A stretch of DNA of 64,000 bases from Modestobacter sp. VKM Ac-2977. Lineage in GTDB: Bacteria; Actinomycetota; Actinomycetes; Mycobacteriales; Geodermatophilaceae. Positions 7,245-31,913 of the stretch are shown one piece after another (the first letter of the stretch is position 1; every line of letters starts with the position of its first letter). The translations under genes and the position numbers were made by a program. The stretch spans positions 124,001 to 188,000 of the forward strand of contig NZ_JAPVBQ010000005.1 in the NCBI RefSeq assembly GCF_026968045.1, read 5' to 3'. Below the pieces are notes generated by a model. The model was not told where the DNA came from, ran no database searches, and was given only the letters and a program-made list of their open reading frames with translations.

Positions 7245-8168
7245 ATGCCTCAGCTCCCCGGGACCGATCTGACCGTCAGCGACCTCTGCCTGGGTGGCAA
7301 CGTGTTCGGCTGGACGGCCGACGAGCCGACGTCCTTCGCCCTGCTCGACCGCTTCCTCGACGCCGTCCCCAGCACCCAGTCGCCGTTCGTCGACACCGCC
7401 GAGATGTACGGCGACGGCGTCTCCGAGACGATCCTCGGCAACTGGATGGCCGAGCGGGGGGTGCGCGACCGGCTGGTCGTGGCCACCAAGGCCTCGCCGG
7501 GGGAGAAGGAGCACCCGCTCTCGGCCCCGGAGATCCGGGCCGCGGCGGAGCGTTCGCTGCGCAACCTGCAGGTCGACACCATCGACCTGTACTACGCGCA
7601 CTACGACGACGAGACGACGCCGCTGGAGGAGACGCTCACCGCCTTCGACGAGCTGGTGCAGGCCGGCAAGGTCCGGTACGCCGCGGCGTCGAACTACTCG
7701 GCGAAGCGGCTGACCGAGGCGCTGGACACCGCGAAGCAGCTCGGCGTCACCGGCTACGTCGCGCTGCAGCCGCACTACAACCTGATGGAACGTGAGGGCT
7801 ACGAGGCCGAGCTGGCCGGCGTCGTGACCGAGCGCGGGCTGGGGTCGATGCCCTACTTCGGGCTGGCCCGCGGCTTCCTGACCGGCAAGTACCGGGCGGG
7901 GGAGACCATCGACTCGCCGCGGGCCAAGGGCGCCGCGCAGTACGTGGGGGAGAAGGGGGACCGGGTGCTGGCCGCGCTGGCCGAGGTCGCCGACGCGCAC
8001 GCGGTGACCGGCGCCGCGGTGGCGCTGCGCTGGCTGGCCGACTCCCCGGCGGTCACCGCGCCGATCGCCAGCGGCCGCTCGGTCGAGCAGCTGGCCGACC
8101 TGCTGCCGATGCTCGACCTGGTGCTCACCGACGAGGAGCGGCAGCGCCTCACCGACGCCAGCGCCTGA
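7245..8168 (+). CDS. Aldo/keto reductase
   Basis: 307 residues with a full (beta/alpha)8 aldo/keto reductase layout. The catalytic tetrad is visible as Asp50 and Tyr55 (VDTAEMYGDG), Lys82 (VVATKAS) and His119 (LYYAHYDDE). The NADP-binding end carries IASGRSVEQLADLL. Related proteins reduce aldehydes and ketones with NADPH in the cytosol; the physiological substrate is not evident. It is monocistronic and followed by a perfect palindrome. Confidence 0.92.
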   Translation: MPQLPGTDLTVSDLCLGGNVFGWTADEPTSFALLDRFLDAVPSTQSPFVDTAEMYGDGVSETILGNWMAERGVRDRLVVATKASPGEKEHPLSAPEIRAAAERSLRNLQVDTIDLYYAHYDDETTPLEETLTAFDELVQAGKVRYAAASNYSAKRLTEALDTAKQLGVTGYVALQPHYNLMEREGYEAELAGVVTERGLGSMPYFGLARGFLTGKYRAGETIDSPRAKGAAQYVGEKGDRVLAALAEVADAHAVTGAAVALRWLADSPAVTAPIASGRSVEQLADLLPMLDLVLTDEERQRLTDASA

Positions 8169-8224
8169 GGAAGCCCCCGGGCCGCCGTCCGTGGTCCCTG
8201 ACCCGGGTCACCCCGGGTGCGGGA

Positions 8225-8256
8225 GGGTTGAGCCGCGTGCGCACGCGGCTCAACCC
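8225..8256. terminator. Perfect 32-base palindrome, bidirectional terminator
   Basis: GGGTTGAGCCGCGTGC is followed directly by its exact reverse complement, giving a 16-base-pair stem. It lies between the convergent aldo/keto reductase and DUF1059 genes and fits a bidirectional terminator. Confidence 0.75.
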
Positions 8257-8318
8257 TGAACCGTCCGCGTCGACCCGGGCGCAGTGGACAGCGGCTGCGG
8301 CCCGGATCGTCGCGGTGC

Positions 8319-8492
8319 CTACACCGCGACGATGTGGGTGCGGACCTGCTCGACGAGCTCGGGCGGCACGCTGCCCAGCCCGTGGTCGGCGGTCGCGTGT
8401 GCGGCGACCTGACCGAGGACGGCGTCCTCGTCCGGGCCGGTGAACGTCATGGTGCAGCCGGGGACGACGTCCCCGCAGGCGAATGCCTTCAT
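8319..8492 (-). CDS. DUF1059 family small protein
   Basis: 57 residues: MKAFACGDVVPGCTMTFTGP, then DEDAVLGQVAAHATADHGLG and PELVEQVRTHI. The CGDVVPGC start, the AHA.ADHG centre and the ELVEQVR end are the family hallmarks of DUF1059, whose Cys and His residues suggest a metal or redox site. The role is unknown. The start is the first ATG after a stop. It is separated from its neighbours and reads toward the 8225-8256 hairpin. Confidence 0.85.
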   Translation of the reverse strand: MKAFACGDVVPGCTMTFTGPDEDAVLGQVAAHATADHGLGSVPPELVEQVRTHIVAV

Positions 8493-8584
8493 GTGGGCTC
8501 CAGTGCGCAGGTGGTGCGGGGACCCGGCCGCCGGACGACGGTCAGGGGTGGTGCACCGGGGGCGGGGTCAGGGCTCCCGGGGGC

Positions 8585-9676
8585 TCAGCCGGTGGCGGCC
8601 GCAGCCGCCAGGTCCTCGACCCGCAGCAGGCCGAGGACGGCGCCGCTGCGGTCGGTGCACAGCACCGGGTCGAACCGGTGCACGGGCGGGCGGGTGAGCG
8701 CGCGGTGCAGGGTCTCGGGGACCCCGGCCGACGGGTGCACGCGCAGCGACACCGGTGCCCGGTACGGCGCGCCGGTCCGCGGGTCGGCGAGCACCAGCTC
8801 GATGGGCACCTCGGTGCGGTCCAGCACGACGTAGGGCGGCGGGCCGTCGTCGGAGTCGTAGGCCTCTCGCTGGCGGATCGGGCGCAGCAGGCTGGCGACG
8901 CTCTCGGCCAGCTGGGCGCGGGCCACCTGGGTGCGCACCAGCTGGGTGACCTCGGGGGTGAGCGGGGCGAAGTGCGGGGTGGGGCGGCCGAACAGCCACC
9001 CCTGGGCCAGCGGGACGCCGAGCCGGGCGAAGACGGCGAGCTCGCCCGCGGTCTCCACGCCCTCGGCGAGCAGCCAGGCGTCGATCCGGCTGGTGAAGGC
9101 ACCCACCATCTCCGCCAGCGCGGCCTTCACCGGGTCGGTGTCGGCGCCGGAGACGAGGGCCCGGTCCAGCTTGACCAGCTGCGGCCGGACCTCGGCGAGC
9201 TGCTGGAGCCCGGCGTAGCCGGACCCGGCGTCGTCGATGGCGATGAGCGCGCCGCGTCCCCGCAGTGCGGCGGTCTGCTCCCGCAGCGCCGCCAGGTCCG
9301 GGGTGGGCATGTGCTCGGTCAGCTCGACGACCACCCGCCGCAGCGTGGCCGGCTGGGCGAGGGCCGCGGCGACCGGTGCGGTGCCCAGCAGGTGCGGGCT
9401 GACGTTGACGGTCAGGAAGGTGTTGGGCGGCAGGTCCGGCAGGGTGGCGAGGGCCTTCCGCAGGGCGAGCGCCTCCAGCTCGGCACCCAGGCCGGCCTCG
9501 GCGGCGGCGGCGAACCACACGTCGGGGGAGGCGGTGCCCGGGAAGCGCGCGAGCGCCTCGTAGCCGGCGACCTCGGCCGAGGCCAGGTCGACGATCGGCT
9601 GGAAGACGATGGTCAGGTCCTCCTCACCCGCGAGCAGCGGGCGGCAGTCCCAGCGGTCCGGGAGGGTCGACGTCAC
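8585..9676 (-). CDS. EAL-domain protein, probable c-di-GMP phosphodiesterase, with CBS-like C-terminus
   Basis: 363 residues if the GTG at 9676 is used; this start has its purine-rich AGAGGAG too close to be ideal, so the true start may differ slightly. The EAL domain (about 15-250) keeps the metal and catalytic motifs: EALAR, NVSP, ELTEH, IDDAGSGYAGL, KLDRALV, AEGVET and QGWLFGRP. It is therefore probably active in hydrolysing c-di-GMP to pGpG. The remaining 110 residues (LDRTEVPIELVLADPRTG, DPVLCTDRSGAVLGLLRVEDL) resemble a CBS-type ligand domain. No transmembrane helix. Divergent from the SpoIIE-type phosphatase, 195 bases away. Confidence 0.85.
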   Translation of the reverse strand: MTSTLPDRWDCRPLLAGEEDLTIVFQPIVDLASAEVAGYEALARFPGTASPDVWFAAAAEAGLGAELEALALRKALATLPDLPPNTFLTVNVSPHLLGTAPVAAALAQPATLRRVVVELTEHMPTPDLAALREQTAALRGRGALIAIDDAGSGYAGLQQLAEVRPQLVKLDRALVSGADTDPVKAALAEMVGAFTSRIDAWLLAEGVETAGELAVFARLGVPLAQGWLFGRPTPHFAPLTPEVTQLVRTQVARAQLAESVASLLRPIRQREAYDSDDGPPPYVVLDRTEVPIELVLADPRTGAPYRAPVSLRVHPSAGVPETLHRALTRPPVHRFDPVLCTDRSGAVLGLLRVEDLAAAAATG

Positions 9677-19194: not shown

Positions 19195-19322
19195 ATTGAT
19201 CACGAGTGATCATCATCGTCGTGTGGTTGCCGAGAACGTCCCTGTCGGGGGTTGACCCCCCGGTACGTCCGGGCACCGGGCGACGCGCCCGGCGCACCGG
19301 GCACCAGGGATGGGAGTCCGGC

Positions 19323-21065
19323 GTGCGCGCCGCTTTCCGCACCCGCCGTCTCGTCGGCCTGCTGGCCGTCACGACGGTCGGCTTCTCCACCACCGTGCTC
19401 GGCGCGGGCCTCGCCCAGGCGACGCCGTCCGGGCTGTCCTTCTCCTCCGTGACCGGCGAGGTCACCACGGTCACGGTGCCCGCAGGCACCTGTGCCATCG
19501 ACTGGATCGTCTCGGGTGGTCGAGGCGGTGCCGGGTCGGACGGGTCGTCCGGCGGCGCGCCCGCCGGTCTGCAGATTCGCACCCTGGTCGCCGCTGGTGA
19601 CCAGTTCGTCCTCGCGCCGGGGAGCGCGGGGGCGGACGCCGGCAGCGCCCCCGACGGCGGTACCAACCCACGGGGGGAGGCGGCCTGGAACGGTGCCGCG
19701 GGCACGTCGACCGGTGGCGGCGGGGGCGCCGCCTCGGTGGTGCTCGAGGACGGTGCCGTCTACCTGGCCGGGTCGGGTCGGGACGGGGCGGGTGTCGACG
19801 GTGGCGCCGGTGGCTCGGTGCCGGACGGCTGGGCCGCGCAGCGCATCGAGGACCCCTCGGCCAACCCGACGTTCACCCTGCCCGAGGGCCAGTTCGACGG
19901 CCGCATCTCCGGCACCGGCGTGACCTGCGGCACGGAGGCCACGCAGGCCCCCCGTGCCCCGACGATCACCCAGGCGGTGCCTGGGCCCGGTCAGCTGTCG
20001 GTGTGGTTCCAGCCGGCCTCGGCGGGTGGTCCCGAGGTCGCGCCGAGCTCCGGCTGGGAGTACAGCATCGACGGTGGGGTGTGGACCAGGGTGGAGAACC
20101 CCGGCGACTTCGGGGGCTTCTCGCCGCAGTTCTACCTGCAGGGGCTGGTCAACGGGCAGACCTACCAGGTCCGGGTCCGCGCGACGAGCTTCCTGGGCGC
20201 CGGCGCGGTCAGCCAGCCGGCCCTGGTGACCCCCTTCGCCTTGCCGGGCGCGCCGACCTCGGCGGCGGCGGAGTTCACGTCCGACGGGCTCGTCGTCTCC
20301 TGGGCGCCGCCCACGGTGAACGGCACCTACCCCGTCAACGGCTACCGGGTCACGGCGGTCACCGCGGAGGCCACTGAGGAGGATCCCGGGGATGAGTGGG
20401 CCTGCACGACCGATGCCACTGCCCGCCGGTGCGTGATGGAGGACGTGCCGGCCGACGGTGACTACGTCCTCTACGTCAGCGCGGTGGACAGCCACGGGCA
20501 CGTGGGTGACTACGACGTCGTCTCGGTCGAGGGCCGGGGTGGCGGTGGGCCCTCGACTCCCGTCACGACCGACCCGGAGGGCACCGGGACCGGTGGGCCA
20601 CGGGTCGTCACACCGCCGGCGGCCCCGGCGGTGCCGGCCGTGCCGCCGGCAGGCAGCGGCGCGGTCACCGGTGCGGGCGGCGCATCCCTGAGCACCATCA
20701 CGCCCGGGGAGACGATCACGCTGACCGGCGACGGGTACGCGCCGCGCACCCGTGTGGACCTCTACGTCTACTCGACGCCGCAGTTCCTCGGCACGGTGGT
20801 CACCGACGACGCCGGCGCATTCGCGGTGACCGTCACGCTGCCCCGTGACCTCGAGGCTGGTCAGCACCACCTGGTCGCCAGCGGCCTGGACCCCGCCGGC
20901 AACCCGCGCTACCTGAGCACCGAGGTCACGCTGGCCGCCGCCGCCGCGGCGTCGGCGCAGCTGGCGTGGACAGGGGTCGACGTGCTGCCGGTCGCCGGCG
21001 CCGGACTGCTGACCCTGCTCCTGGGTGCAGGTCTGGTCGTCCTCGCCCGGCGGCGCGCCGCCTGA
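19323..21065 (+). CDS. LAxTG cell-wall-anchored surface protein
   Basis: 580 residues from a GTG preceded by GGGAG. The signal peptide (VRAAFRTRRLVGLLAVTTVG, then FSTTVLGAGLAQA) is followed by a Gly-rich region to about 170, fibronectin-III-like repeats about 200-430 (GWEYSIDGGVWTRV, LVNGQTYQVRVRA), a Pro-rich linker, an Ig-like domain (PGETITLTGDGYAP, STPQFLGTVVTDDAGAFAVT) and a sorting signal: LAWTG at residues 547-551, a hydrophobic helix and ARRRAA. The protein should be exported and attached to peptidoglycan by a sortase. A class E sortase gene lies downstream. It is a paralogue of the gene at 30153. Confidence 0.88.
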   Translation: MRAAFRTRRLVGLLAVTTVGFSTTVLGAGLAQATPSGLSFSSVTGEVTTVTVPAGTCAIDWIVSGGRGGAGSDGSSGGAPAGLQIRTLVAAGDQFVLAPGSAGADAGSAPDGGTNPRGEAAWNGAAGTSTGGGGGAASVVLEDGAVYLAGSGRDGAGVDGGAGGSVPDGWAAQRIEDPSANPTFTLPEGQFDGRISGTGVTCGTEATQAPRAPTITQAVPGPGQLSVWFQPASAGGPEVAPSSGWEYSIDGGVWTRVENPGDFGGFSPQFYLQGLVNGQTYQVRVRATSFLGAGAVSQPALVTPFALPGAPTSAAAEFTSDGLVVSWAPPTVNGTYPVNGYRVTAVTAEATEEDPGDEWACTTDATARRCVMEDVPADGDYVLYVSAVDSHGHVGDYDVVSVEGRGGGGPSTPVTTDPEGTGTGGPRVVTPPAAPAVPAVPPAGSGAVTGAGGASLSTITPGETITLTGDGYAPRTRVDLYVYSTPQFLGTVVTDDAGAFAVTVTLPRDLEAGQHHLVASGLDPAGNPRYLSTEVTLAAAAAASAQLAWTGVDVLPVAGAGLLTLLLGAGLVVLARRRAA

Positions 21066-21423: not shown

Positions 21424-22407
21424 ATGGCCGACCCGGAGTGGCGCGGCGACGAGGACATCGAAGACACCCAGCGCTGGCGTCGGATCCCGGACCTGGTCCC
21501 GGTGCCGTCGGCCGGGAGAGCGGTCTCCGTCGATGATGCGCGGACCGCCGTGGTGGAGCCCCCCAGGACGCCGGAATGGCTGTTCGACGCGGAGCCCTCC
21601 GGCGGGCACGAACACGAGGAGCAGGCCGTGGAAGACCACGAGTCCACTCCGGGGACGGTGCGCGACCCGGTCTGGCGGCTGCTGACCCGCGGGGCCGGCG
21701 AGCTGATGGTGACCGTGGGGCTGGTCCTGTTGCTGTTCGTCGTCTACGAGGTCTACGTCACCGACCTGCTCAACGACCGCCGGCAGGACCAGTTGACCGA
21801 GGAGATCCGCGACCTCTGGGCGGACGCCCCGGAGTCCTCGGGCGTGCTCCCGGTGCTGGTCGAACCGGCGGCCGGTGAGCCGCTCGCGGTGCTGCGCATC
21901 CCGCGGCTCGGGGAGGACCACCAGCAGGTCGTGCTGCAGGGCACCGACGAGGCCCAGCTGTCGCAGGGGCCGGGGCACTACGCCGGGACGGCGATGCCGG
22001 GGCAGCCCGGCAACCTGGCCATGGCCGGGCACCGGGTGGGCAAGGGATCGCCGTTCATGGACCTCGACCAGCTCCGGCCCGGGGACCCGATCGTGGTGGA
22101 GACCGCGGACGCGTGGTTCGTGTACCGGGTGCTCGGCGATCCGGTCACCGGCGACTTCGCCACCGATCCCAGCGGGATCCCCGGCCAGCAGATCGTCCGG
22201 CCGTCCGACGTCGACGTCATCGCCCCCACGCCGGGCGTTGCCGGTGCGGCGCCGTCGGGCACGTACCTGACCCTGACCACCTGCCACCCGAAGTACTCCG
22301 CGCGGCAGCGCCTGATCGTGCACGCCGGCCTGGACGGCGCCCCGGTCGCCAAGGCGGATGCGCCCGCCGGCCCGCCGGCCCTGCTCCAGCACGGAGAGGA
22401 CTCCTGA
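21424..22407 (+). CDS. Class E sortase
   Basis: 327 residues: an acidic cytosolic N-terminus, one membrane helix about 93-112, then an extracellular sortase barrel. The catalytic His203 is in AMAGHRVG, Cys287 in TYLTLTTCHPK and the Arg in YSARQRL. Class E enzymes of high-GC actinobacteria cleave LAxTG rather than LPxTG signals, which fits the LAWTG and LAYTG proteins in this window. The ATG follows GGGGAG. The stop overlaps the start of a 52-residue membrane protein. Confidence 0.92.
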   Translation: MADPEWRGDEDIEDTQRWRRIPDLVPVPSAGRAVSVDDARTAVVEPPRTPEWLFDAEPSGGHEHEEQAVEDHESTPGTVRDPVWRLLTRGAGELMVTVGLVLLLFVVYEVYVTDLLNDRRQDQLTEEIRDLWADAPESSGVLPVLVEPAAGEPLAVLRIPRLGEDHQQVVLQGTDEAQLSQGPGHYAGTAMPGQPGNLAMAGHRVGKGSPFMDLDQLRPGDPIVVETADAWFVYRVLGDPVTGDFATDPSGIPGQQIVRPSDVDVIAPTPGVAGAAPSGTYLTLTTCHPKYSARQRLIVHAGLDGAPVAKADAPAGPPALLQHGEDS

Positions 22408-22608: not shown

Positions 22609-25260
22609 TCACATGCTGCGGCGGAGCTTGAGCAGCGGCGGGCGGCCGTCGGGGTCGATGACGTAGCGGTAGAGGGGCGCGGCCATCAGCCGCTCCTGCA
22701 GGGGCGGGCGCTCGACGTGGTGGGCGCGCAGCCGGCCGGGGGGGCGGGGTCCGTGACGCCCGCCGGCGTGCCAGGCGTCCAGGGCGGCGGCGCACTCCCG
22801 GAACACCGCCACCGCCCGCTCCGGGTCCAGCAGCTCACCGTCGGCGTCGGCGCGGCCGAGGTGTTCGCGCATCAGCTCCAGCCGCAGCTCCCGGGCGAAG
22901 CGGCGGGCCCCGTCCCCGTGCCCGCCGGGGTCGGTCGGTTCCCGCGGGTCCCGCTCGCTGTCGAGCACGGCGGCGGTCAGCTCCGAGTCGTGCGTCCAGG
23001 ACCGGCGGTTGAAGTTGTCGCTGCCGACCGTGGCCCACACGTCGTCGATGACGCAGACCTTGGCGTGCACGTAGACCGGGTTCCCCCGCGCGTTCTCCAC
23101 GTCGAAGACCTGCACCCGGTCCCCACCGGCGGCCCGGACCATGTCCAGCGCCCGGTCCTGCCCGACGGCCGCCGGCAGGATGCTGACCGGGCTGTTCTTG
23201 TCCGGGTGCCGGGGCACGACGACCACCAGGTGCAGCCGGGGCCGGGAGCGCAGCGCCTCGGCGAACACCCGGGCGACGTCGGTGGACCACATGTACTGGT
23301 CCTCCACGTAGACCAGTCGCTCTGCCCGGGCCAGCGCCTTGGCGTACCCGCGGGCCACGCTCCGCTCGCCCTCCGGGGCGAACGGGTACCCGGGCCAGCG
23401 GTTGGGGTAGGTGCGCAGCAGCTGGACCGCGCACGACCCCTCACCCGGTGGTGCCGGCAGCGCCTCGGGCAGGGACGAAGGCGTCCGGTCCTGCCCGCGC
23501 AGCAGGTCGGGCAACACGTGCCACGGCATCCGGGACAGCGCTGCGGGGTCCTCCCACCGCTCCCGGAACACCGTCTCGACCTCGCGCACGACCGGCCCGC
23601 GCAGCTCGGCCTGGACGTCGTGCCACGCCGGGGTGTCGCCGTAGGCCTCGGAGAACGGCCGGGGCTGTGGGTCGCCCCCGTGGGCGGCGTCGTCCCGGCG
23701 GCTGTGCGCGACGTCGATCCCGCCGACGAACGCGACGTCGTCGGCCGGGCGGTCGCGGTGCCGGACGACGACGAACTTCTGGTGATGGCTGCCCATCGGC
23801 CGGACCCGCTGGTCCAGCAGCACCTCCCCGCCGGTCTCGTTGACGTCCCGGGACAGGCCCCGGTTCTCCTCCGCGGAGTAGCTCATCGCCTCCACGTGCG
23901 ACCGCCAGATCAGCCCCTTGACCACGGCGCCGCGGCGGACGGCGTCGGACAACGCCTTCCCCACCGTCAGCCCGTCGTCGGTGAGCAGCTCGTCGGTGTC
24001 GCCCCGCCAGCCGGCGAGGAACACCACGTCGCCGCGCCCGGCGCGGGCGAGCGCCTCGGCCAGAGCGCGGAAGTAGGCGCGGCCGTGCACGATCGGCCGC
24101 ACCTGGTTGCCCTCGGTCCACGGTCGCAGCAGGGTGGCGGCGTTGCCGCGCTCGGCGGCGGTGAGGAACCACGCCTCCGGGCCGGCCGGGGCCGCAGGTG
24201 GCAGGTCGAGGGTGGTGTCCAGACGGGCGGCCAGCTCGGCGCCGTCCGGAGCCCGGACGACCGGCACCTCGCCGACGGCACCGCTCGGCTCACCGCCGTC
24301 CTGCTCACCCCCGACCGGCAGGACCCGCCGCAGCGCGATTGCCTCCACCCGGTCCGGGTGCCGGCGGGCGAAGTCCTGGTAGATCTCCGGGTCGTGCTCG
24401 CCGTCGTCCCCCACGAGCACCCAGCGGATCCCGGGCAGGTCGGTGGACAGCCGCTCCAGCGAGCTCCGCTTGTGGGCCCGGCCGTCCCGGAACCAGGCGC
24501 GCGGCGTGATGCCCCAGTCGGTCATCAGCAGGGCCCCGGCCGGGAACCGGTTCCGGTCCAGGAAGCGGGCCACCGGGCCGGCCAGGTTCCACGGGCCGTT
24601 GCTGAGGTAGACCACGGGGGCGTGCGGGTGCTCCTGGACCAGCCGGGTGAGCAACAGGGCCATGCCCGGCACCACGGTGCGCCCGCTGCTGGACCGGGCG
24701 AAGGTCCGCCAGGCGGCCCGGAGCGGGTGCCGCAGCCCGGTCACCCAGATGGTGTCGTCGACGTCGCAGACCACGCCGCGGCGGACGTCCGGCGCGGCGA
24801 CGTGCACGGTCGCCCGGGCCGGCTCGCGCCCGGGCACGCGCAGCTCGACCTGCGCCGGTCCTGGCGGGAGGGCCACGTCCAGGGTGACGTCGACGAGGCC
24901 GGCTGCATCGGACCGGGCGGTGTGCCGCACGTCGCCCAGCGCGATCTCCACCTCACCGCCGGGCTCCTCGAGGGTGAGGAACCGCCGCCAGCCCGGGATG
25001 TCCCGCCGGGCCCCCGGGTCGGTGCCGACCGGTGCGAGCAGCACCCGGCCCAGCACCCGGGCGCGGCCGCTGGCGCCGTAGCCGGGGAAGGTCAGCGCCG
25101 CCGGGTGCCAGCCCCGGCGTCGGGCCACCCGGGCCAGCTGGTCCCGCAGGCCGTTCTCCAGCCGGTAGGCGATCCCGATCAGCCGGCTGGGGGTGTCGGC
25201 GGTGGGATCGGCCGGGTCTGCTGGCGGACCGCCCCGCCGGCGGTGGGTCTGTGCGGTCAT
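22609..25260 (-). CDS. APP1-type phosphatidate phosphatase fused to phospholipase D-like domain
   Basis: 883 residues. Residues about 55-310 match the bacterial APP1/DUF2183 phosphatidate phosphatase: a beta-rich N-terminal part, then the HAD-type motif VVCDVDDTIWVTG (Asp166, Asp168), VVYLSNGPWNLAG and VLVGDDGEHDPEIY. Residues about 365-860 are a PLD-superfamily unit with two HKD-type motifs, HHQKFVVV (493-495) and VHAKVCVIDD followed by GSDNFNRRS (732-749). No signal peptide. One polypeptide could cut a phospholipid to phosphatidate and then to diacylglycerol (inference). The start ATG follows a weak purine-rich stretch. It is divergent from the CNNM genes. Confidence 0.88.
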   Translation of the reverse strand: MTAQTHRRRGGPPADPADPTADTPSRLIGIAYRLENGLRDQLARVARRRGWHPAALTFPGYGASGRARVLGRVLLAPVGTDPGARRDIPGWRRFLTLEEPGGEVEIALGDVRHTARSDAAGLVDVTLDVALPPGPAQVELRVPGREPARATVHVAAPDVRRGVVCDVDDTIWVTGLRHPLRAAWRTFARSSSGRTVVPGMALLLTRLVQEHPHAPVVYLSNGPWNLAGPVARFLDRNRFPAGALLMTDWGITPRAWFRDGRAHKRSSLERLSTDLPGIRWVLVGDDGEHDPEIYQDFARRHPDRVEAIALRRVLPVGGEQDGGEPSGAVGEVPVVRAPDGAELAARLDTTLDLPPAAPAGPEAWFLTAAERGNAATLLRPWTEGNQVRPIVHGRAYFRALAEALARAGRGDVVFLAGWRGDTDELLTDDGLTVGKALSDAVRRGAVVKGLIWRSHVEAMSYSAEENRGLSRDVNETGGEVLLDQRVRPMGSHHQKFVVVRHRDRPADDVAFVGGIDVAHSRRDDAAHGGDPQPRPFSEAYGDTPAWHDVQAELRGPVVREVETVFRERWEDPAALSRMPWHVLPDLLRGQDRTPSSLPEALPAPPGEGSCAVQLLRTYPNRWPGYPFAPEGERSVARGYAKALARAERLVYVEDQYMWSTDVARVFAEALRSRPRLHLVVVVPRHPDKNSPVSILPAAVGQDRALDMVRAAGGDRVQVFDVENARGNPVYVHAKVCVIDDVWATVGSDNFNRRSWTHDSELTAAVLDSERDPREPTDPGGHGDGARRFARELRLELMREHLGRADADGELLDPERAVAVFRECAAALDAWHAGGRHGPRPPGRLRAHHVERPPLQERLMAAPLYRYVIDPDGRPPLLKLRRSM

Positions 25261-25509
25261 CCTGGCGGCTCCGTGGGTGGTGACGTCCGTGGGTGGTGGC
25301 GCGGCTCCCGGCACCGTGCAGCGCAGCACCGCGCGGGCCGGGGCGGGCGAGTCCTCAGTCCTATCGTGGAACCACCCGGTCCGCTCGGGCGTTGCGCGGT
25401 GCAGCGGTGCAGCCGGGTGCGGACGCCGGATCGACGACGACGAACAGGGGACCACGGTGAGCACGCGCTGCCCAGGGCCGCGCCATGACCGGACACGGCG
25501 GGGACGCCG

Positions 25510-26901
25510 GTGATCGAGTGGTTGCTGCTCCTGGCGGCCGTCCTCCTCGTCGCCGCCAACGCGGTCTTCGTCGCGGCCGAGTTCTCCCTCATCGCCGCCG
25601 ACCGGGTCACCCTGGAACGGGAGGCGGCGGCCGGCGACCGGCGGGCGGCCGGTGTGGTCGCGGCGATGCGCTCGCTGTCCACCCAGCTCTCCGGCGCGCA
25701 GTTGGGCATCACCGTGACCAGTCTGGTCGTCGGGTTCATCGCCGAGCCGTCACTGGCCACGTTGCTGCGTGGCCCGCTGGGGCTGACCGGGCTGGGCGAC
25801 GGGGCGGTGACCGCGATCTCCGTCGGGGTGGCGCTCGCCGTCGCCACCGGGGTGCAGATGGTCTTCGGTGAGCTCGTGCCCAAGAACTGGGCGATCGCCG
25901 AGCCGACCCGGGTGGGGAAGTTCGTGGCCGGGCCCCAGCGTGCCTTCACGACCGCGACCCGGCCGTTGATCACCTTCCTCAACGGGTCGGCGAACCGGTT
26001 GCTGCACCTCATGGGCATCACCCCGACCGAGGAGCTCGCCTCGGCGCGGGCTCCGCAGGAGCTGGCGTCGCTGGTCAACCGGTCGGGGCAGGCCGGGACG
26101 CTGGACGTGGGCACGGCCGACCTCGTCGCCCGGTCCATCCAGTTCGGCGACCGGACGGCGGCCGACGTGATGACCCCCCGCCCGCGGGTGCGGTTCCTCC
26201 GTGCGGACCAGCCGGTCGCCGACCTGCTGGAGCTGGCCGGGTCCAGCGGGCACGCGCGTTTCCCGGTCGAGGGCGAGAGCGTCGACGACGTCGTCGGGGT
26301 GGTCCACTTCAAGCACGCGATGGCGGTGCCGGCGGCACAGCGGGTGACCCGCACGGTGGGCGAGGTGATGGTGCCGGTGCGCGCGGTGCCGGAGACCGTC
26401 GAGCTCGACCCGTTGCTGGAGACGCTCCGCGAGCCGGGGCTGCAGGTGGCCGTGGTGGTCGACGAGTACGGCGGCACCGCCGGCATCGTGACCCTGGAGG
26501 ACCTCATCGAGGAGATCGTCGGCGAGATCGACGACGAGCAGGACGCCCCCGTCCACCGGCAACGCCAGGCGCCGGACGGGTCCTGGGTGCTCTCCGGCCT
26601 GCTGCGGCCGGACGAGGCCGGGGAGGCCGTGGGGTTGGAGCTGCCCGAGGGCGAGGGGACGGACACGCTCGGCGGACTGCTCACCGAGCGGCTGGGCCGG
26701 CTGCCGCGGGTCGGCGACCGCGTCGTCCTGCCCGCCCGCGACGTCGCCCGTCCGGATCCTGACGGCGTCCCCGTGCCGACCGAGGTGGCGGTGACGGTGA
26801 CCCGGCTGGACGGCCACCGGGTCGACCGGGTGCGGATGCGGCGCACCGGGGGCGCGACCGCAGCCTCGGCACGACGGACCGAGACGGAGACCGCCCGATG
26901 A
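25510..26901 (+). CDS. CNNM/CorC-type membrane protein with CBS pair
   Basis: 463 residues from a GTG. Three or four N-terminal membrane helices carry the CNNM/DUF21 signature (ANAVFVAAEFSLIAADR, GELVPKNWAIAEP). A CBS pair follows, about 215-345 (MTPRPRVRFL, VAVVVDEYGGTAGIVTLEDL), and then a CorC_HlyC tail. Such proteins, once called hemolysins, are linked to Mg2+/Co2+ efflux. The next gene is a paralogue overlapping this stop by four bases. Confidence 0.9.
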   Translation: MIEWLLLLAAVLLVAANAVFVAAEFSLIAADRVTLEREAAAGDRRAAGVVAAMRSLSTQLSGAQLGITVTSLVVGFIAEPSLATLLRGPLGLTGLGDGAVTAISVGVALAVATGVQMVFGELVPKNWAIAEPTRVGKFVAGPQRAFTTATRPLITFLNGSANRLLHLMGITPTEELASARAPQELASLVNRSGQAGTLDVGTADLVARSIQFGDRTAADVMTPRPRVRFLRADQPVADLLELAGSSGHARFPVEGESVDDVVGVVHFKHAMAVPAAQRVTRTVGEVMVPVRAVPETVELDPLLETLREPGLQVAVVVDEYGGTAGIVTLEDLIEEIVGEIDDEQDAPVHRQRQAPDGSWVLSGLLRPDEAGEAVGLELPEGEGTDTLGGLLTERLGRLPRVGDRVVLPARDVARPDPDGVPVPTEVAVTVTRLDGHRVDRVRMRRTGGATAASARRTETETAR

Positions 26902-27950
26902 GCGACACCGTGGCCATCCTGCTCGCGGTGCTCCTGCTCGCCGGGAACGCCTTCTTCGTGGGAGCCGAGTTCGCCCTGGTCTCCGCCCGGCGGACCCAGG
27001 TCGAGCCGCGCGCGGCCGAGGGCGTGCGCGGCGCCCGGACGACGCTGAAGGCGATCGAGAACGTCTCGCTGATGATGGCCGGTGCCCAACTGGGCATCAC
27101 GGTCTGCTCGCTGGGGCTGGGTGCGGTGGGTGAGCCGGCCGTGGCACACCTGCTGGAGGGGCCCTTCGCCGCCGCGGGCCTGCCCGAGGCCCTGGTGCAC
27201 CCGGTGGCGTTCGCCATCGCGCTCGCCGTCGTCGTCTTCCTGCACATGGTGCTGGGGGAGATGGTGCCCAAGAACATCTCGCTCGCGGGCCCGGAGCGGG
27301 CGGCGCTGCTCCTCGGACCACCGCTGTACTGGGTCGTCCGTGCGCTGCACCCGCTGATCTGGCTGCTGAACCAGGTGGCCAACCTGGTGCTGCGGGCCTT
27401 GCGGGTGACCCCCCAGGACGAAGTCGCCTCGACGTTCACCCGGGACCAGGTGACCGGCCTGATCGGGGAGTCCCGCCGCGAGGGGCTGCTGGACGAGCGG
27501 GAGCACCAGTTGCTGACCGGGGCCCTGCAGTTCGACGAGCAGCGGACCGCAGACGTCGCGATCCCGACGGCGGACCTGGTCACCGTGCCGCCCCGGATCA
27601 CCGTCGCGGAGCTCGAGGAGGTCTGTGCCACCACCGGGTACTCCCGCTTCCCGGTGGTGGCCGAGGACGGCGACCTCCGAGGCTACGTGCACCTCAAGGA
27701 CTTCCTCGCCGTCCCCGCGGAGCAGCGGGACTCCCCGGTCGACCCGGCGCTCATCCGGCCGCTGGCCACCGCGACGACCGACCAGGGGCTGCGCGAGGTG
27801 CTGGCCACCATGCAGCGGGAGGGCGCACACCTGGCCGTCGTCCGTGACGAGGGCCGGACCGTCGGCGTGGTGGCCCTGGAGGACGTGCTGGAGGAGCTGG
27901 TCGGCGAGGTGCGTGACGCCGCGCAGACGGTGGCGGCCGGTCGTCGGTAG
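26898..27950 (+). CDS. CNNM-type membrane protein with CBS pair, second copy
   Basis: 350 residues, starting ATG in an ATGA overlap with the previous gene. It has the same CNNM helices (GNAFFVGAEFALVSARR, LGEMVPKNISLAGP) and a CBS pair (CATTGYSRFPVVAEDGDLRG, GRTVGVVALEDVLEELVGEV), but lacks the C-terminal CorC_HlyC domain of its neighbour. Tandem CNNM genes are common in actinobacteria and the products may act together in divalent-cation handling. Confidence 0.9.
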   Translation: MSDTVAILLAVLLLAGNAFFVGAEFALVSARRTQVEPRAAEGVRGARTTLKAIENVSLMMAGAQLGITVCSLGLGAVGEPAVAHLLEGPFAAAGLPEALVHPVAFAIALAVVVFLHMVLGEMVPKNISLAGPERAALLLGPPLYWVVRALHPLIWLLNQVANLVLRALRVTPQDEVASTFTRDQVTGLIGESRREGLLDEREHQLLTGALQFDEQRTADVAIPTADLVTVPPRITVAELEEVCATTGYSRFPVVAEDGDLRGYVHLKDFLAVPAEQRDSPVDPALIRPLATATTDQGLREVLATMQREGAHLAVVRDEGRTVGVVALEDVLEELVGEVRDAAQTVAAGRR

Positions 27951-27964
27951 CGGCCGCTTCCCGG

Positions 27965-29785
27965 TCAGCTGCGGCGCGACCCCCGGGAGGAGCGGTTGCG
28001 CCGTCCGGCGCCGCCACCGGTGTTCGCCGTCGGCGCCGGGCGACCGTCGGAGCGGCCGCGACCGCCGCGGCCCCCGGCCGGCCGGGAGCGCTCGGCGCCG
28101 CCCCGGCCGGACCTCGGGCCGCTGCACGGGCGGCAGGTGGTGAACCACGGGGCGATCGAGGTGCCGCACTCCGTGCACGTGCCCGAGCGGCCGATGGCGA
28201 TCGCGTCGGGCAGCAGCTCGGTGATGGTCTCGGCGCACGCCTCCTCGAGCTCGGCGGCGTCGTCGCTGTCCAGCCCGGCCACGCCGGGGAACTGGCGGAG
28301 CAGCGTCTGGGCGTCCCGCGCGGCGGCAGCGGCCTGCTCGTACTCCTCGACCGATCCCTTGACCGGGTACTCGGGCAGCACGGTCGCGACCGGCACGGGC
28401 AGGCCGACCGCGTGCTGCAGGGCGGCCCGGGCCAGCACCAGCCAGCGGGTGCGCCGCGGCGGGTTGTAGTCGATGGCCAGGTTGATCAGCCGCCACACCG
28501 TCTGCAGGTCGCCGGCCTCGCCCAGCGGCCCGCGCAGCATCGGCAGGAGGGCGTGCACGCGCAGGACCAGGCCGGTGACGTCGTCGGCGGTCATGCCCTC
28601 GCCCTGGGTCGCCACCCGCGCCCAGGCCATCCAGCGGGTGAGCGCCTCGGGCAGGTCGACCGCCTCGTACGCACCGAGGTCCTCCAGCTCCGGGCGGAGC
28701 CGGGGCCGGCGCTTGGGCAGGTCGCTCATCTCGTCGCCACGGGCGACCGCGGCACCGGCACCGACCAGCGCGCCGACCGGCTTGAGCCCGGCGACCCCGA
28801 TCAGGATCCCGGTCTGGCCGTGCCCGGTGAGCCCGTACCGGCCGGCGCGCCCGGCGATCTGGGCGACCTCCCAGGTGCGCAGCGGACGCAGCTCCTGGCC
28901 GTCGAACTTGGTGGTCTCGGCGAACAGCACCGTGGTGGCCGGCACGTTGATCCCGTGGCCGATGACGTCCGTGGTCACCAGCACGTCGAACTCACCGCGG
29001 GTGAACCTGTCGATGACCTGGCGGCGGGTGGCCGGCGGCAGCGCGCCGTAGAGCACGCCGACCTTGCCGGGCCGGTGCTGGTCCAGCTCGGCGGCGACGG
29101 CGTAGACGGCCTTGCGGGAGAACGCCACGACCAGCGTCTGCGGGCGGACGGCGTCGGTGCGCACCGGTGCCTTGAGGACGTCGAGCCGCGAGAGCCGCTT
29201 GTGGTTGACGACCTGCACCTGCTGGGCGTCGGTGACCAGCGGCTTGAGCACCAGGTAGGCCTCGGCGGCGGAGATCAGGTGCATCTCGCGGTACTCGCCG
29301 GTCAGCAGCAGCCGGGCCCAGTGGTGGCCGCGGTCGGGGTCGGTGACCCAGTGGGACTCGTCGAGGACGAGCAGCTCGCCGCGATCGGGGGCCTTCTCCA
29401 CGGTGCAGCAGACGATCGCCGCGTTCGGGTCGATCTCCTCCTCACCGGTGGACAGGCCCACGGTGCCCGGCGGGAGCTGGGCGGAGAGCTTGGCGTAGGC
29501 CTCGTGCGCCAGTTGACGCAGCGGCGCGGCGTAGACGCCCGAGCCGGTGGCGGCCAGCGCCTGCAGCGACTCGTAGGTCTTGCCGGAGTTGGTCGGACCG
29601 AGGTGGAAGACCACCTTCTCCGGGCGGGTGGCGCGGGTGGGGAGCTCGGGCGCGGCGCCGTCCACCCAGATCTGCTGGGCGCGCTTCTCGTCGCGCGCGG
29701 CGGTCCGGTCGGCGTCACGGGCGGCGGTCTCGCGAGCCGCACTGCGCTCACGGCGCCGGGTGGGGGAGTGCTGGGGGCCGGTCAC
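27965..29785 (-). CDS. SUV3-like DExH RNA helicase with zinc ribbon and RGG tail
   Basis: 606 residues. Walker A GPTNSGKT at 63-70 and DESH at 142-145 (Walker B) have the SUV3 form, followed by TTDVIGHGINVPATTVLFAE then TTKFDG and QIAGRAGRYG at 309-318 (motif VI). SUV3 helicases unwind RNA in mitochondrial degradosomes; bacterial relatives are little studied. After the helicase core come a helical region, a CxxC..CxxC zinc-ribbon candidate (Cys537, 540, 551, 554) and an RGG/Ser-rich tail typical of RNA binding. The GTG start lacks a strong ribosome site, so an alternative start is possible. Convergent with the CNNM pair. Confidence 0.85.
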   Translation of the reverse strand: MTGPQHSPTRRRERSAARETAARDADRTAARDEKRAQQIWVDGAAPELPTRATRPEKVVFHLGPTNSGKTYESLQALAATGSGVYAAPLRQLAHEAYAKLSAQLPPGTVGLSTGEEEIDPNAAIVCCTVEKAPDRGELLVLDESHWVTDPDRGHHWARLLLTGEYREMHLISAAEAYLVLKPLVTDAQQVQVVNHKRLSRLDVLKAPVRTDAVRPQTLVVAFSRKAVYAVAAELDQHRPGKVGVLYGALPPATRRQVIDRFTRGEFDVLVTTDVIGHGINVPATTVLFAETTKFDGQELRPLRTWEVAQIAGRAGRYGLTGHGQTGILIGVAGLKPVGALVGAGAAVARGDEMSDLPKRRPRLRPELEDLGAYEAVDLPEALTRWMAWARVATQGEGMTADDVTGLVLRVHALLPMLRGPLGEAGDLQTVWRLINLAIDYNPPRRTRWLVLARAALQHAVGLPVPVATVLPEYPVKGSVEEYEQAAAAARDAQTLLRQFPGVAGLDSDDAAELEEACAETITELLPDAIAIGRSGTCTECGTSIAPWFTTCRPCSGPRSGRGGAERSRPAGGRGGRGRSDGRPAPTANTGGGAGRRNRSSRGSRRS

Positions 29786-30152
29786 AGACAGGGAGTGTCC
29801 TTCGCTGAGGGATCAGGCGGTGGGAGGTCGACGCGCACGTGCGCGGACCATCGCAGGGTGGAACACCGCCAGTGCTCCCATCATGCCCCATCCAGGGCTC
29901 CACGACGATCCAGAGGATGGTCGTGCAGCTCTGCCAAGCCGTGGGGCGCATGGAGTCGGCGTCTGCTCGATCGACTGTAGGCAAGTGACCAAGGAACCAT
30001 CTGCTCACCACAGGTAACGGTCTGGTAACGGCACGCACCAACGGCTCGGCGGCGCACAGTCGACGCTCAGGTGAGTGCCAGGTTCCGTGCAGCACCCGGA
30101 CCTCCGGGTAGACGAGCCCGGCGTTCCGGGCACCCCCACCTGGGAGATCGAC
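29786..30152. other. Divergent intergenic region, helicase / surface protein
   Basis: About 370 bases with no gene I can support. It holds the promoters of both genes and the tandem GGTAACGG boxes listed separately. Confidence 0.5.
30013..30031 (+). promoter_or_regulatory. Tandem GGTAACGG boxes upstream of the second LAxTG gene
   Basis: GGTAACGG occurs at 30013-30020 and 30024-30031, an 11-base spacing (one helical turn), typical for dimeric OmpR-family response regulators. The boxes lie 120-140 bases before the start codon, matching the single box before the first LAxTG gene. MtrA-type control is a possible reading (inference). Confidence 0.5.
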
Positions 30153-31913
30153 GTGCGTCTCACGTCTCCGGCCCGTCGTGCGGCCGGCCTGCTGGCCGTC
30201 ACCACGATCGGCGTGTCCACCGCAGTCCTCAGCGTCACCGGCTCGGCCTCGGCTGACGTCACAGGCGACTTCACCTTCAGCACCTCCTCCGCCGATGCGG
30301 CCAACGTGACGGTCGGCGCCGACGGGGTCCTGGTGGTCCCCGAGGGCTACTGCTCCGTCGAGTGGACCGTCGTCGGCGGTCAGGGTGGCGCCGGCAGCGC
30401 CGCGGGTGAGGGTGGCCGCGGCGGCTTCCTCTACGAGGTCGTCGACATCACCGGTGCACAGACCTACCGGCTCTCTCCTGGTACGGCGGGCACAGCCGCC
30501 GAGCCTGAGTCGGCCGAGGCATTGGCCGACGGAATGGTCGGTGTCGGGGGTGAGAACGCAGTCGGTGACGACGGCACCGATGGTGCGAGCTTCGGCTCCG
30601 GGGGCGGCAACGCGTACAGCGGCGGGGGTGGCGCCGGCTCGCGCGTGGAGGTGATGGTCGACGGCACTCCGGCCGACTTCCTGTTCGCCTATGGCGGCGA
30701 CGGCGGCTACGCGGACTCGGATGGTGACCCGGCCGCCGGCGTGGGTGCCGGAGACACGACGAACGTCTACTCGGACGGGACCACCGACGGGTCCACAGGT
30801 GGGGACACGGGCGACGGTTTCGTCTCCGGCCAGGCCATCGCCTGCGCGGTGCCCCCCACCGACGGCCCGGTCACGCCGCCCCCTGGTGACCAGACGCCCG
30901 TGGACACGCAGGTCACCGGCGCACCGCGGGCCAACTGGGTCTACGGGGTGGCCAACGGCCTGGACTTCCAGCTGAACACCAGCACCGTCGACTCCGCGAA
31001 CCCGGTCACTGGCGTCGAGTACACCCTCGACGGTGGCAAGACCTGGACCGGCGTCGCCGCCGCGAACCTGGGCGACTACCAGTACTCCGGCACGATCACC
31101 GGCCTCGAGTCGGGCGCCACGTACTCGGTCAACTTCCGGTTCACCACTAAGCAGGCCCCGACGGCTGCCTCCGACACCGTCACCGGCCGCACCGCCGTGC
31201 CTGGACCGCGGGACGTCAAGGCCGTCGCCGGCCCCGCCTCGATCAAGGTGAACTGGGCCGCACCGGCCAGCCTCGAGGGCGTCGCCGGCTACCTCGTCAC
31301 CGCGTCCCCCGAGGGTGCGCAGAGCAGCGCCGGCTCGAGGTCCTGCCAGCCGGCGGCCGCCCTGGGCACCGCCTGCGCCCTGCCCGCCGTCCCCGGCACG
31401 ACCTACAAGCTGAGCGTCCACTCCCTCGACGCCGTTGGTGAGCGGCTCGGCCGCTCCGACCAGGTCACCGTCGGGCCGGTCCTCGCCTCGTCCGTCGCGG
31501 CCTCGCTCCCCAAGGCCGACGGCACCCTGACCAGTGACGACGCCGACGGCAAGGTCGTCGCCGGCGAGAAGATCACCATCTCCGGCAAGGACTTCCTCCC
31601 CGGCTCCACGGTCGACCTGGTGGTCTACTCCACCCCGGTCGAGCTCGGCACCGCCACCGTGCTGGCCGACGGCACCTTCAGCGCCACCGTCACGCTGCCC
31701 AAGGAGCTCGCCAACGGCACCCACCACCTGGTGGCCTCCGGTGTCGACGCCAACGGCAACCCGCGCAACCTGGTCGTCGAGGTCACCGTCTCCGGTGGCA
31801 CGGCCGTCCTGGCCTACACGGGCTTCTCGCCGCTGCCGTTCGTCGGCGCCGGCGCGCTCGCCCTGGTGGCCGGCGGTGGCCTGCTCGTCGCCTCCCGCCG
31901 CCGGGCGCAGTAA
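30153..31913 (+). CDS. LAxTG cell-wall-anchored surface protein, second copy
   Basis: 586 residues from a GTG after GGGAGA. Signal peptide (VRLTSPARRAAGLLAVTTIG, then VSTAVLSVTGSASA), a Gly-rich region to about 230, fibronectin-III-like domains about 250-435 (GVEYTLDGGKTWTGV, ESGATYSVNFRFTTK), an Ig-like domain (AGEKITISGKDFLPGSTVDL) and a sorting signal with LAYTG at 553-557, a membrane helix and SRRRAQ. It shares its architecture and signal-peptide core with the 19323 gene, so the two arose by duplication. Probable substrate of the class E sortase. Confidence 0.88.
   Translation: MRLTSPARRAAGLLAVTTIGVSTAVLSVTGSASADVTGDFTFSTSSADAANVTVGADGVLVVPEGYCSVEWTVVGGQGGAGSAAGEGGRGGFLYEVVDITGAQTYRLSPGTAGTAAEPESAEALADGMVGVGGENAVGDDGTDGASFGSGGGNAYSGGGGAGSRVEVMVDGTPADFLFAYGGDGGYADSDGDPAAGVGAGDTTNVYSDGTTDGSTGGDTGDGFVSGQAIACAVPPTDGPVTPPPGDQTPVDTQVTGAPRANWVYGVANGLDFQLNTSTVDSANPVTGVEYTLDGGKTWTGVAAANLGDYQYSGTITGLESGATYSVNFRFTTKQAPTAASDTVTGRTAVPGPRDVKAVAGPASIKVNWAAPASLEGVAGYLVTASPEGAQSSAGSRSCQPAAALGTACALPAVPGTTYKLSVHSLDAVGERLGRSDQVTVGPVLASSVAASLPKADGTLTSDDADGKVVAGEKITISGKDFLPGSTVDLVVYSTPVELGTATVLADGTFSATVTLPKELANGTHHLVASGVDANGNPRNLVVEVTVSGGTAVLAYTGFSPLPFVGAGALALVAGGGLLVASRRRAQ

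Follow-up and report, generated by a model that had tools for sequence, protein, structure and literature searches.

Phospholipase D (PLD) and phosphatidate (PA) phosphatase act in succession, as separate proteins, in eukaryotic lipid signalling and storage, and PA is itself a membrane-curving, signalling lipid. Passages of a study of Legionella (PMC3486869) describe a PLD, LpdA, that makes PA, and a second protein, LecE, that activates a host PA phosphatase to yield diacylglycerol (DAG). In rhodococci, PA phosphatase candidates of the haloacid dehalogenase (HAD) type are clustered or fused with Kennedy-pathway genes, as set out in sections of PMC4850399. Here, we analyse a stretch of 64,000 nucleotides from Modestobacter sp. 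VKM Ac-2977 (contig NZ_JAPVBQ010000005.1, positions 124,001 to 188,000; hereafter the window), in which a single minus-strand gene at 22609..25260 joins an APP1-type phosphatase unit to a PLD-like unit. We propose, with a probability of about 0.52, that its product would be a cytosolic, membrane-surface enzyme that makes DAG from phospholipid via PA. The Legionella system is the nearest functional parallel, but LpdA and LecE are two separate proteins that act on the host, and LecE is an activator only. As in the window gene, the rhodococcal candidates pair an actinobacterial HAD phosphatase, by fusion or proximity, with a second lipid enzyme; their partner is not a PLD.

One gene for an APP1 unit and a PLD-like unit

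The gene runs from an ATG at 25260 to a stop at 22609 and comprises 883 codons plus the stop. Our reading of the open reading frames bore out the frame, the length of 883 residues and the coordinates given in a preliminary description of the window, and added the strand, which that description lacked. A Met aligns at the position of the start codon in three related loci (L002, L003 and L005), and a GGAG read in the sequence at 25269..25272, 8 bases ahead of the ATG on the same strand, is a putative ribosome-binding site. A consensus scan for a promoter and a terminator at the gene found none, and shuffled sequences behaved likewise. Long overlapping frames on the opposite strand are taken to be by-products of the high G+C content, while a chance or spurious origin of the fused frame itself is ruled out by Pfam scores, conservation and the ratio of non-synonymous to synonymous change (dN/dS). 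Proteins of Modestobacter sp. VKM Ac-2984 and Ac-2982 share 97% identity with the fused protein; the host genome of the window comprises 4.31 Mb in 16 contigs.

Related fusions were sorted into two types. Type A resembles the window protein, with an N-terminal domain, an APP1 unit bearing DVDDT, and the PLD unit. Type B starts at the HAD domain and has a shortened, diverged APP1 without the N-terminal domain, in which the motif DxDG[V/T/A/E] stands in place of DVDDT.

The APP1 half of the window protein begins with a beta domain (residues 52-155, 24796..25107, minus strand as for all parts of the gene), which appears as strands in the structural models. The HAD phosphatase domain follows at residues 162-312 (24325..24777) and matches APP1_cat (PF09949) with 151.7 bits against a Pfam cut-off of 27.1 (E 2e-44). 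In lipin/Pah enzymes the N-terminal domain is Ig-like, and the fourth HAD motif of such phosphatases is acidic. The motif set is complete here: DVDDT as motif I (residues 166-170, 24751..24765), confirmed in the translation where it had first been placed; YLSNGPW as motif II, with S or T at that place across the alignment; K264 as motif III; and G284-D285-D286 as motif IV. D166, D168, K264, G284, D285 and D286 are invariant in all nine fused proteins aligned (six type A, three type B). Motifs I-III of PA phosphatases, as described in part of PMC12357310, are matched by the corresponding residues of the APP1 half.

A short linker (residues 341-363, 24172..24240) leads from the end of the conserved C-terminal segment of APP1 to W364, where PLD homology begins in the alignment. 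The PLD-like unit (residues 364-883, 22612..24171) comprises two half-domains, delimited by Pfam, by sequence matches to solved structures and by alignment. PLDc_2 covers residues 716-768 (40.6 bits, cut-off 27) and PLDc residues 730-754 (26.9 bits, cut-off 21.9). Since solved PLDs were matched by sequence search in separate stretches within 381-832, the homology extends over both half-domains, about 364-883, and is wider than the Pfam match. APP1_cat, PLDc_2 and PLDc all lie above their Pfam cut-offs, in the order first proposed. By its PLD fold and its PLDc and PLDc_2 matches, the C-terminal half belongs to the PLD (HKD) superfamily; it is PLD-like by fold and profile, and when we call it a phospholipase D we refer to its probable mode of working. 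Cardiolipin synthase was rejected as an identity for this half, with the NCBIfam cut-offs far missed (ClsB, 36.4 against 281 bits; bac_cardiolipin, 23.2 against 290 bits).

The preliminary description had placed HKD-type motifs at about residues 493 and 732. Both positions stand, and the second motif, H-A-K-x4-D (residues 732-739, 23044..23067), is complete in the alignment; the first, H-Q-K-x4-R (residues 493-500, 23761..23784), has Arg instead of Asp and so is not a full HKD motif. H493, K495, R500, H732, K734 and D739 are invariant in the 36 sequences of our main alignment, selected from 46 first listed. Across 107 distinct PLD domains, the place of the first Asp holds Arg in 97 and Thr or Asn in four, with the pattern unmatched in six, while the second motif is complete in all 107. 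Four of the six non-fitting motifs have H-x-R and belong to the upstream copies of mycobacterial tandem pairs. In these pairs of stand-alone PLDs (L040, L066, L068 and L076), the downstream copy retains H-x-K in motif 1, and their sequences make it possible that they are pairs of an active and an inactive enzyme. The Geodermatophilaceae-type PLDs of L096, L097, L048, L100 and L101 carry Thr or Asn where motif 1 would have Asp; the first three cluster with type-B fusions, yet are without an APP1 half.

We compared predicted models of the protein with known structures. The full-length model, built with 36 sequences, has a mean predicted local distance difference test score (pLDDT) of 73.9 and a predicted template modelling score of 0.64, with the PLD half good (pLDDT mostly 70-98) and the APP1 half poor. 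In fold, the PLD half matches human PLD2 and PLD1 best (Z 32-33, with 22% identity across about 450 residues), followed by plant PLD alpha (Z 30), Pseudomonas aeruginosa PldA (Z 26-28), vaccinia F13 (Z 25-26) and Escherichia coli phosphatidylserine synthase (Z 24-25); Streptomyces PLDs, PLD3 and PLD4 are at Z of about 23. The APP1 half modelled on its own, with nine sequences, has a mean pLDDT of 52.5. Weak as this model is, its matches form a coherent set: the top one is the C-terminal LNS2 domain of Nir2 with PA (Z 18.1), and lipin/Pah PA phosphatases match over about residues 52-355 (Z 14.4-15.7), with ranges of 52-352 to 9jtz and 52-357 to 7lhk; other HAD folds reach Z of at most 10.7. No lipin family was found at E up to 1 in the Pfam search of the fused protein, and a profile search at E up to 1 returned neither a solved lipin nor a Nir sequence; no solved structure matched the APP1 half by sequence, the sole weak hit being a proteasome subunit (E 0.45). 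This low-confidence model supports an APP1 half that may work like a lipin-type PA phosphatase, while membership of the lipin family is not supported by sequence. Because it has no solved relative by sequence, a structure of this half would be informative.

Residues 23-48 (25117..25194) are predicted to form an amphipathic helix in both models, with pLDDT under 50 for these residues. Its hydrophobic moment is 0.55, a value reached by 39 of 2000 shuffles, and the helix is a possible membrane anchor. The absence of a signal peptide, noted earlier, holds: no stretch of the 883-residue protein is hydrophobic in the manner of a signal peptide or membrane span, and the highest 19-residue Kyte-Doolittle mean, 0.93, lies in the PLD core.

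Distribution, separate genes and origin of the fusions

The APP1-PLD fusion is rare. A survey of 84,980 species, with one genome per species, gave 172 places bearing relatives, and the best 80 of these held eight fusions (five type A, three type B). Within the family Geodermatophilaceae, 109 of 112 genomes match the query somewhere and 102 do so at a level that only the PLD match reaches (best match E 1e-177 or better), whereas APP1_cat is present in 48. Seven of the 112 carry type A, namely six of the 23 genomes of the genus Modestobacter and one Geodermatophilus genome (G059, locus L006), and five, Blastococcus-like and others, carry type B (G013, G015, G027, G089 and G104, the last with a broken frame). 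In G104 (L176, about 7329-9583), the APP1 part of the type-B fusion is split over two overlapping frames and the PLD part is intact. Beyond the family, type B occurs in Pseudonocardia ammonioxydans, two Actinomycetospora and one further genome (G660). This second APP1-PLD form is shared by genus groups g1, g2 and g3 as well as members of other families. Searches of the order (397 genomes, APP1_cat in 135) found seven type-A and six type-B fusions, and in those of the class (394 genomes, APP1_cat in 72) the only demonstrable fusion was the window's own.

Many APP1 matches in the order and class searches lie in frames of more than 690 residues, the minimum able to hold both units. The fetched loci of this kind, including 29 new ones from the order search, were rejected as fusions, being either APP1 alone with a frame that runs on upstream or members of a DIDDT family; the exceptions are type A, type B and G660, which are real fusions. 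The long frames of G080 and G089 (contig C184) were judged from the distance to PLD matches only. Divergent APP1 matches in G486, G289 and G239 were likewise set aside as a distinct APP1-like DIDDT family with no PLD half. Three loci (L172, L173 and L174) show this APP1-like HAD family, which is far from standard APP1 and has no PLD half, in genomes that carry standard APP1 too.

The type-A fusion occurs where separate genes for the two units are absent. In all seven type-A genomes the single APP1_cat match is the fused one, and no PLD match above 39% identity exists besides the fused one, the distant PLD-like genes being at 32-39%. Within the genus, a separate standard APP1 is found in none of the six type-A genomes and in 15 of the 17 others, the remaining two being 67-70% complete. 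A separate PLD at 58-61% identity, a strength at which the listing is complete, is found in none of the six and in 12 of the 17 others; the five without it are G092, with a type-A-like PLD, G104, with type B, and three genomes that are 70-72% complete. In G092, G096, G098, G104 (contig C84), G105 and G106, the separate APP1 was recognised by its short frame or by having no PLD match nearby. Fisher tests gave p values of 0.0003 for the separate APP1 and 0.005 for the separate PLD, which overstate the case because the genomes are related and the lineages not independent. The type-A Geodermatophilus genome, from the other genus, shows the same absence of both genes. Thus, from gene content, the fused protein seems to replace the separate APP1 and PLD genes in type-A genomes.

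Loss of motifs in close homologues had been named as a finding that would tell against a working fusion. The outcome is mixed. DVDDT, the two H-x-K pairs and the second Asp are intact in all seven type-A genomes, and to this extent the motifs hold; erosion is seen in G092, which is without the APP1 half, and in type B, with its DxDG[V/T/A/E] motif and no N-terminal domain. In six type-A comparisons, made with a custom script using simple counting, dN/dS is 0.08-0.50 over the APP1 N-terminal domain, APP1_cat and the PLD unit and 0.50-1.00 for residues 1-60; both halves are under purifying selection and residues 1-60 are nearly free to vary.

We then compared trees of the two halves, with protein copies dropped from both. 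The PLD tree kept 68 of 111 rows after thinning by hand, mostly of Streptomyces, mycobacteria and near-copies, and the APP1 tree omitted L091, which has a broken frame. Fused forms, stand-alone PLDs of Cellulomonadaceae and a few others make up one strongly supported PLD clade, separate from the usual Geodermatophilaceae PLD. Tandem stand-alone PLD genes, head to tail, occur within this clade in Actinotalea (L015 and L018). A single clade of both fusion types with four stand-alone rows is compatible with the PLD tree (AU p 0.46). In that tree the Geodermatophilus fusion is separated from those of Modestobacter, a single clade of type A with L090 is not rejected (p 0.48), and the APP1 half of the Geodermatophilus fusion clusters with stand-alone APP1s carried by its relatives, with support of 92/75 that is not firm. 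The PLD of G092 falls in the Modestobacter type-A clade; its APP1 half is absent and a separate APP1 is present. Type-B APP1 branches are too long to place their origin. These trees accommodate one old fusion with later losses as well as two or three fusions, and type A itself may reflect more than one fusion event.

A proposed relay and its alternatives

Taken together, a relay from PLD to PA phosphatase is the best-supported mechanism for what is a real, well conserved and probably functional protein, because the PLD half has the fold of lipid PLDs, the APP1 half models, at low confidence, onto HAD domains that bind or hydrolyse PA, and both separate genes are absent from type-A genomes. We propose a soluble, two-headed enzyme that would work on the cytosolic side of the cell membrane. 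Its PLD unit, at the C terminus, would convert phospholipid to PA and the free head-group alcohol, and the N-terminal APP1 unit, held nearby by the short linker and perhaps anchored by the helix, would turn that PA into DAG at the same patch of membrane. The net product would be that of a phospholipase C reached by a PLD route, so that PA need not accumulate. DAG could then feed the wax-ester/DAG acyltransferases (WS/DGAT) or DAG kinases of the host genome, which has two WS/DGAT matches, one of them weak, and three DAGK_cat matches; as proteins of both families are encoded, DAG could be stored or recycled. Phosphatidylethanolamine, phosphatidylglycerol, cardiolipin or phosphatidylinositol would be likely substrates. 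In the sections of PMC9686282 used here, the strains contain mainly diphosphatidylglycerol, phosphatidylethanolamine, phosphatidylcholine and phosphatidylinositol, often with phosphatidylglycerol, and the Modestobacter type species is reported to lack the gene for phosphatidylcholine synthase. Gene structure, domain identity, conserved catalytic residues, selection on both halves and the lack of both separate genes alongside type A are observed; we infer both activities, their order, the substrate, the membrane face and the hand-over of PA.

Several observations weigh against this proposal. The first PLD motif lacks its Asp, with Arg at R500 here and in most relatives, and the fold match of the APP1 half is a lead, not proof, because its model is poor (mean pLDDT 52.5). 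Since PLD is found in 102 of the 112 family genomes and APP1_cat in 48, the PLD has a role independent of APP1, and the loss of the APP1 half in G092 means that the fusion is not indispensable. Four of the five type-B genomes, G104 being the exception, retain the usual separate PLD, and G089 and G104 retain a separate standard APP1. Separate APP1 and PLD genes were not seen as neighbours: among the matches listed, the two sit on different contigs or are separated by more than 400 kb, and a phmmer search of the flanks fetched around stand-alone PLD loci turned up no APP1. The host genome also encodes PAP2-family phosphatases (six rows, five over the cut-off), so the fused enzyme is not the sole possible PA phosphatase. 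Two PAP2-domain matches on one host contig (G000:C10:57965-59047), both in frames of 564 residues and about 400 bases apart, are perhaps one doubled PAP2 protein.

A fuller form of the relay, in which one chain hands on PA unreleased and replaces two enzymes in some Modestobacter and one Geodermatophilus, and in which type B may exert PA-gated control of its PLD, is less likely than not. Its last element concerns the stripped-down type-B APP1, which, with DxDG and no N-terminal domain, may serve such PA-gated control.

In the alternative that survives best, there would be no relay: the PLD unit would mainly swap head groups, as in cardiolipin synthesis or another transphosphatidylation, the APP1 unit would act on PA made de novo or on phosphatidylglycerol phosphate (PGP), and the fusion would merely bring both enzymes to the membrane. 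The weak NCBIfam matches to ClsB and bac_cardiolipin and the many genomes with a PLD and no APP1 fit this reading, and according to the part of PMC9686282 that bears on it just two of the studied genomes carry a PGP phosphatase annotation. However, the ClsB and bac_cardiolipin scores of 36.4 and 23.2 bits are far below 281 and 290, the fold is nearest to eukaryotic PLDs (E. coli phosphatidylserine synthase, which transfers head groups, reaches Z 24.6), and a cardiolipin synthase (EC 2.7.8.41) is reported, in the same part of PMC9686282, in all genomes studied. We regard it as unlikely.

A main role of the APP1 half as a sensor or tether is improbable. Here the APP1 half would chiefly bind PA and switch or place the PLD unit, in the manner of Nir LNS2, which binds PA but does not hydrolyse it, and the top fold match of the low-confidence model (Nir2 LNS2 with PA, Z 18.1) agrees with this. 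The best fit is to the type-B fusions, where the N-terminal domain is missing and the motif reads DxDG[V/T/A/E]. Nir LNS2 lacks the catalytic Asp of DxDxT, according to a portion of PMC12419160, whereas D166, D168, K264, D285 and D286 are invariant in all nine fused proteins, including three of type B, and type-A genomes have no APP1_cat match besides the fused one.

The Arg in the first PLD motif bears on a further alternative, in which the PLD-like half would cleave another phosphodiester or be a lipid-binding pseudo-enzyme. H-x-K-x4-R in 97 of 107 domains and the four mycobacterial tandem copies with H-x-R favour it, but none of the 36 aligned sequences has lost either His-Lys pair or the second Asp and the fold is nearer to lipid PLDs (Z 32-33) than to the nucleases PLD3 and PLD4 (Z about 23), and we consider it quite improbable. 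A neutral or accidental fusion with uncoupled halves, suggested by the rare, patchy distribution and by G092 without its APP1 half, is very unlikely, as two genera have retained the fusion with purifying selection acting on each half, separate genes are absent in all seven type-A genomes, and genus groups g1, g2 and g3, along with other families, have a second APP1-PLD form.

Genomic neighbourhood and known relatives

The fused gene is flanked by a sortase gene (21424-22407, plus strand) and by two adjacent CNNM/CBS genes (25510-27950, plus strand) that are divergent from it, with a Suv3-like helicase gene beyond the pair (27965-29785, minus strand). With no obvious lipid gene adjoining, the fused gene is probably transcribed alone. 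The CNNM pair and the helicase are kept in the Modestobacter type-A loci L002-L005, where the sortase is adjacent in L004 and a few kilobases away in L002, L003 and L005. None of the sortase, the CNNM pair and the helicase was found at the Geodermatophilus locus. In G092, a sortase gene separates the PLD half from this helicase gene, which lies nearby, and the CNNM/CBS pair was not found in the stretch fetched (L175). The window's sortase gene sits between genes for two proteins of fibronectin type III (fn3) or immunoglobulin (Ig) type (19206-21065 and 30075-31913), whose C-termini read LAWTG and LAYTG, then a hydrophobic segment with Arg residues after it; they look like substrates of an LAxTG-type sortase.

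The open-licence literature searched, with domain-architecture databases outside the search, held no published function or description of an APP1-PLD fusion, nor did the portion of PMC12419801 consulted describe one; the preliminary description likewise knew of no characterised bacterial enzyme of this kind. A Frankia protein named phospholipase D, FRAAL1744, is given in a section of PMC5768760 as 1.8-fold up under polyethylene glycol treatment, and would be a lead on the biology if it belongs to this PLD family.

The fusion brings together two known kinds of enzyme in a way that is new, and its natural occurrence suggests that both steps are functionally tied in these bacteria. It would offer a single soluble protein for measuring relay, channelling and PA control, and it suggests a job, in membrane turnover or lipid storage, for the little-studied bacterial APP1 and H-x-K-x4-R PLD families.

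Comparison with known PLDs indicates both the shared core and the departures. Human PLD1 and PLD2, plant PLD alpha and P. aeruginosa PldA share the two-half PLD fold (Z 26-33) and the HHxK...GGID and H-x-K-x4-D...GSxNxN segments, whereas the fused protein has Arg for Asp in motif 1, an APP1 unit in front and no PX, PH or C2 among its Pfam matches. Streptomyces PLDs of known structure have the PLD fold at lower similarity (Z about 23) and are secreted, while the fused protein is without a signal peptide. Yeast App1, a PA phosphatase (PF09949), shares the APP1_cat match over cut-off and the DxDxT motif and, to our knowledge, is without a PLD half. Lipin/Pah and Nir LNS2 may resemble the APP1 half in fold over residues 52-355 and in an N-terminal helix, both predicted with low pLDDT, the lipin features being those described in part of PMC12419160; the fused protein differs in being bacterial, with no sequence match to the solved members and no Pfam lipin family. 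If it is truly lipin-like, the APP1 half would be a bacterial form of the lipin-type PA phosphatase.

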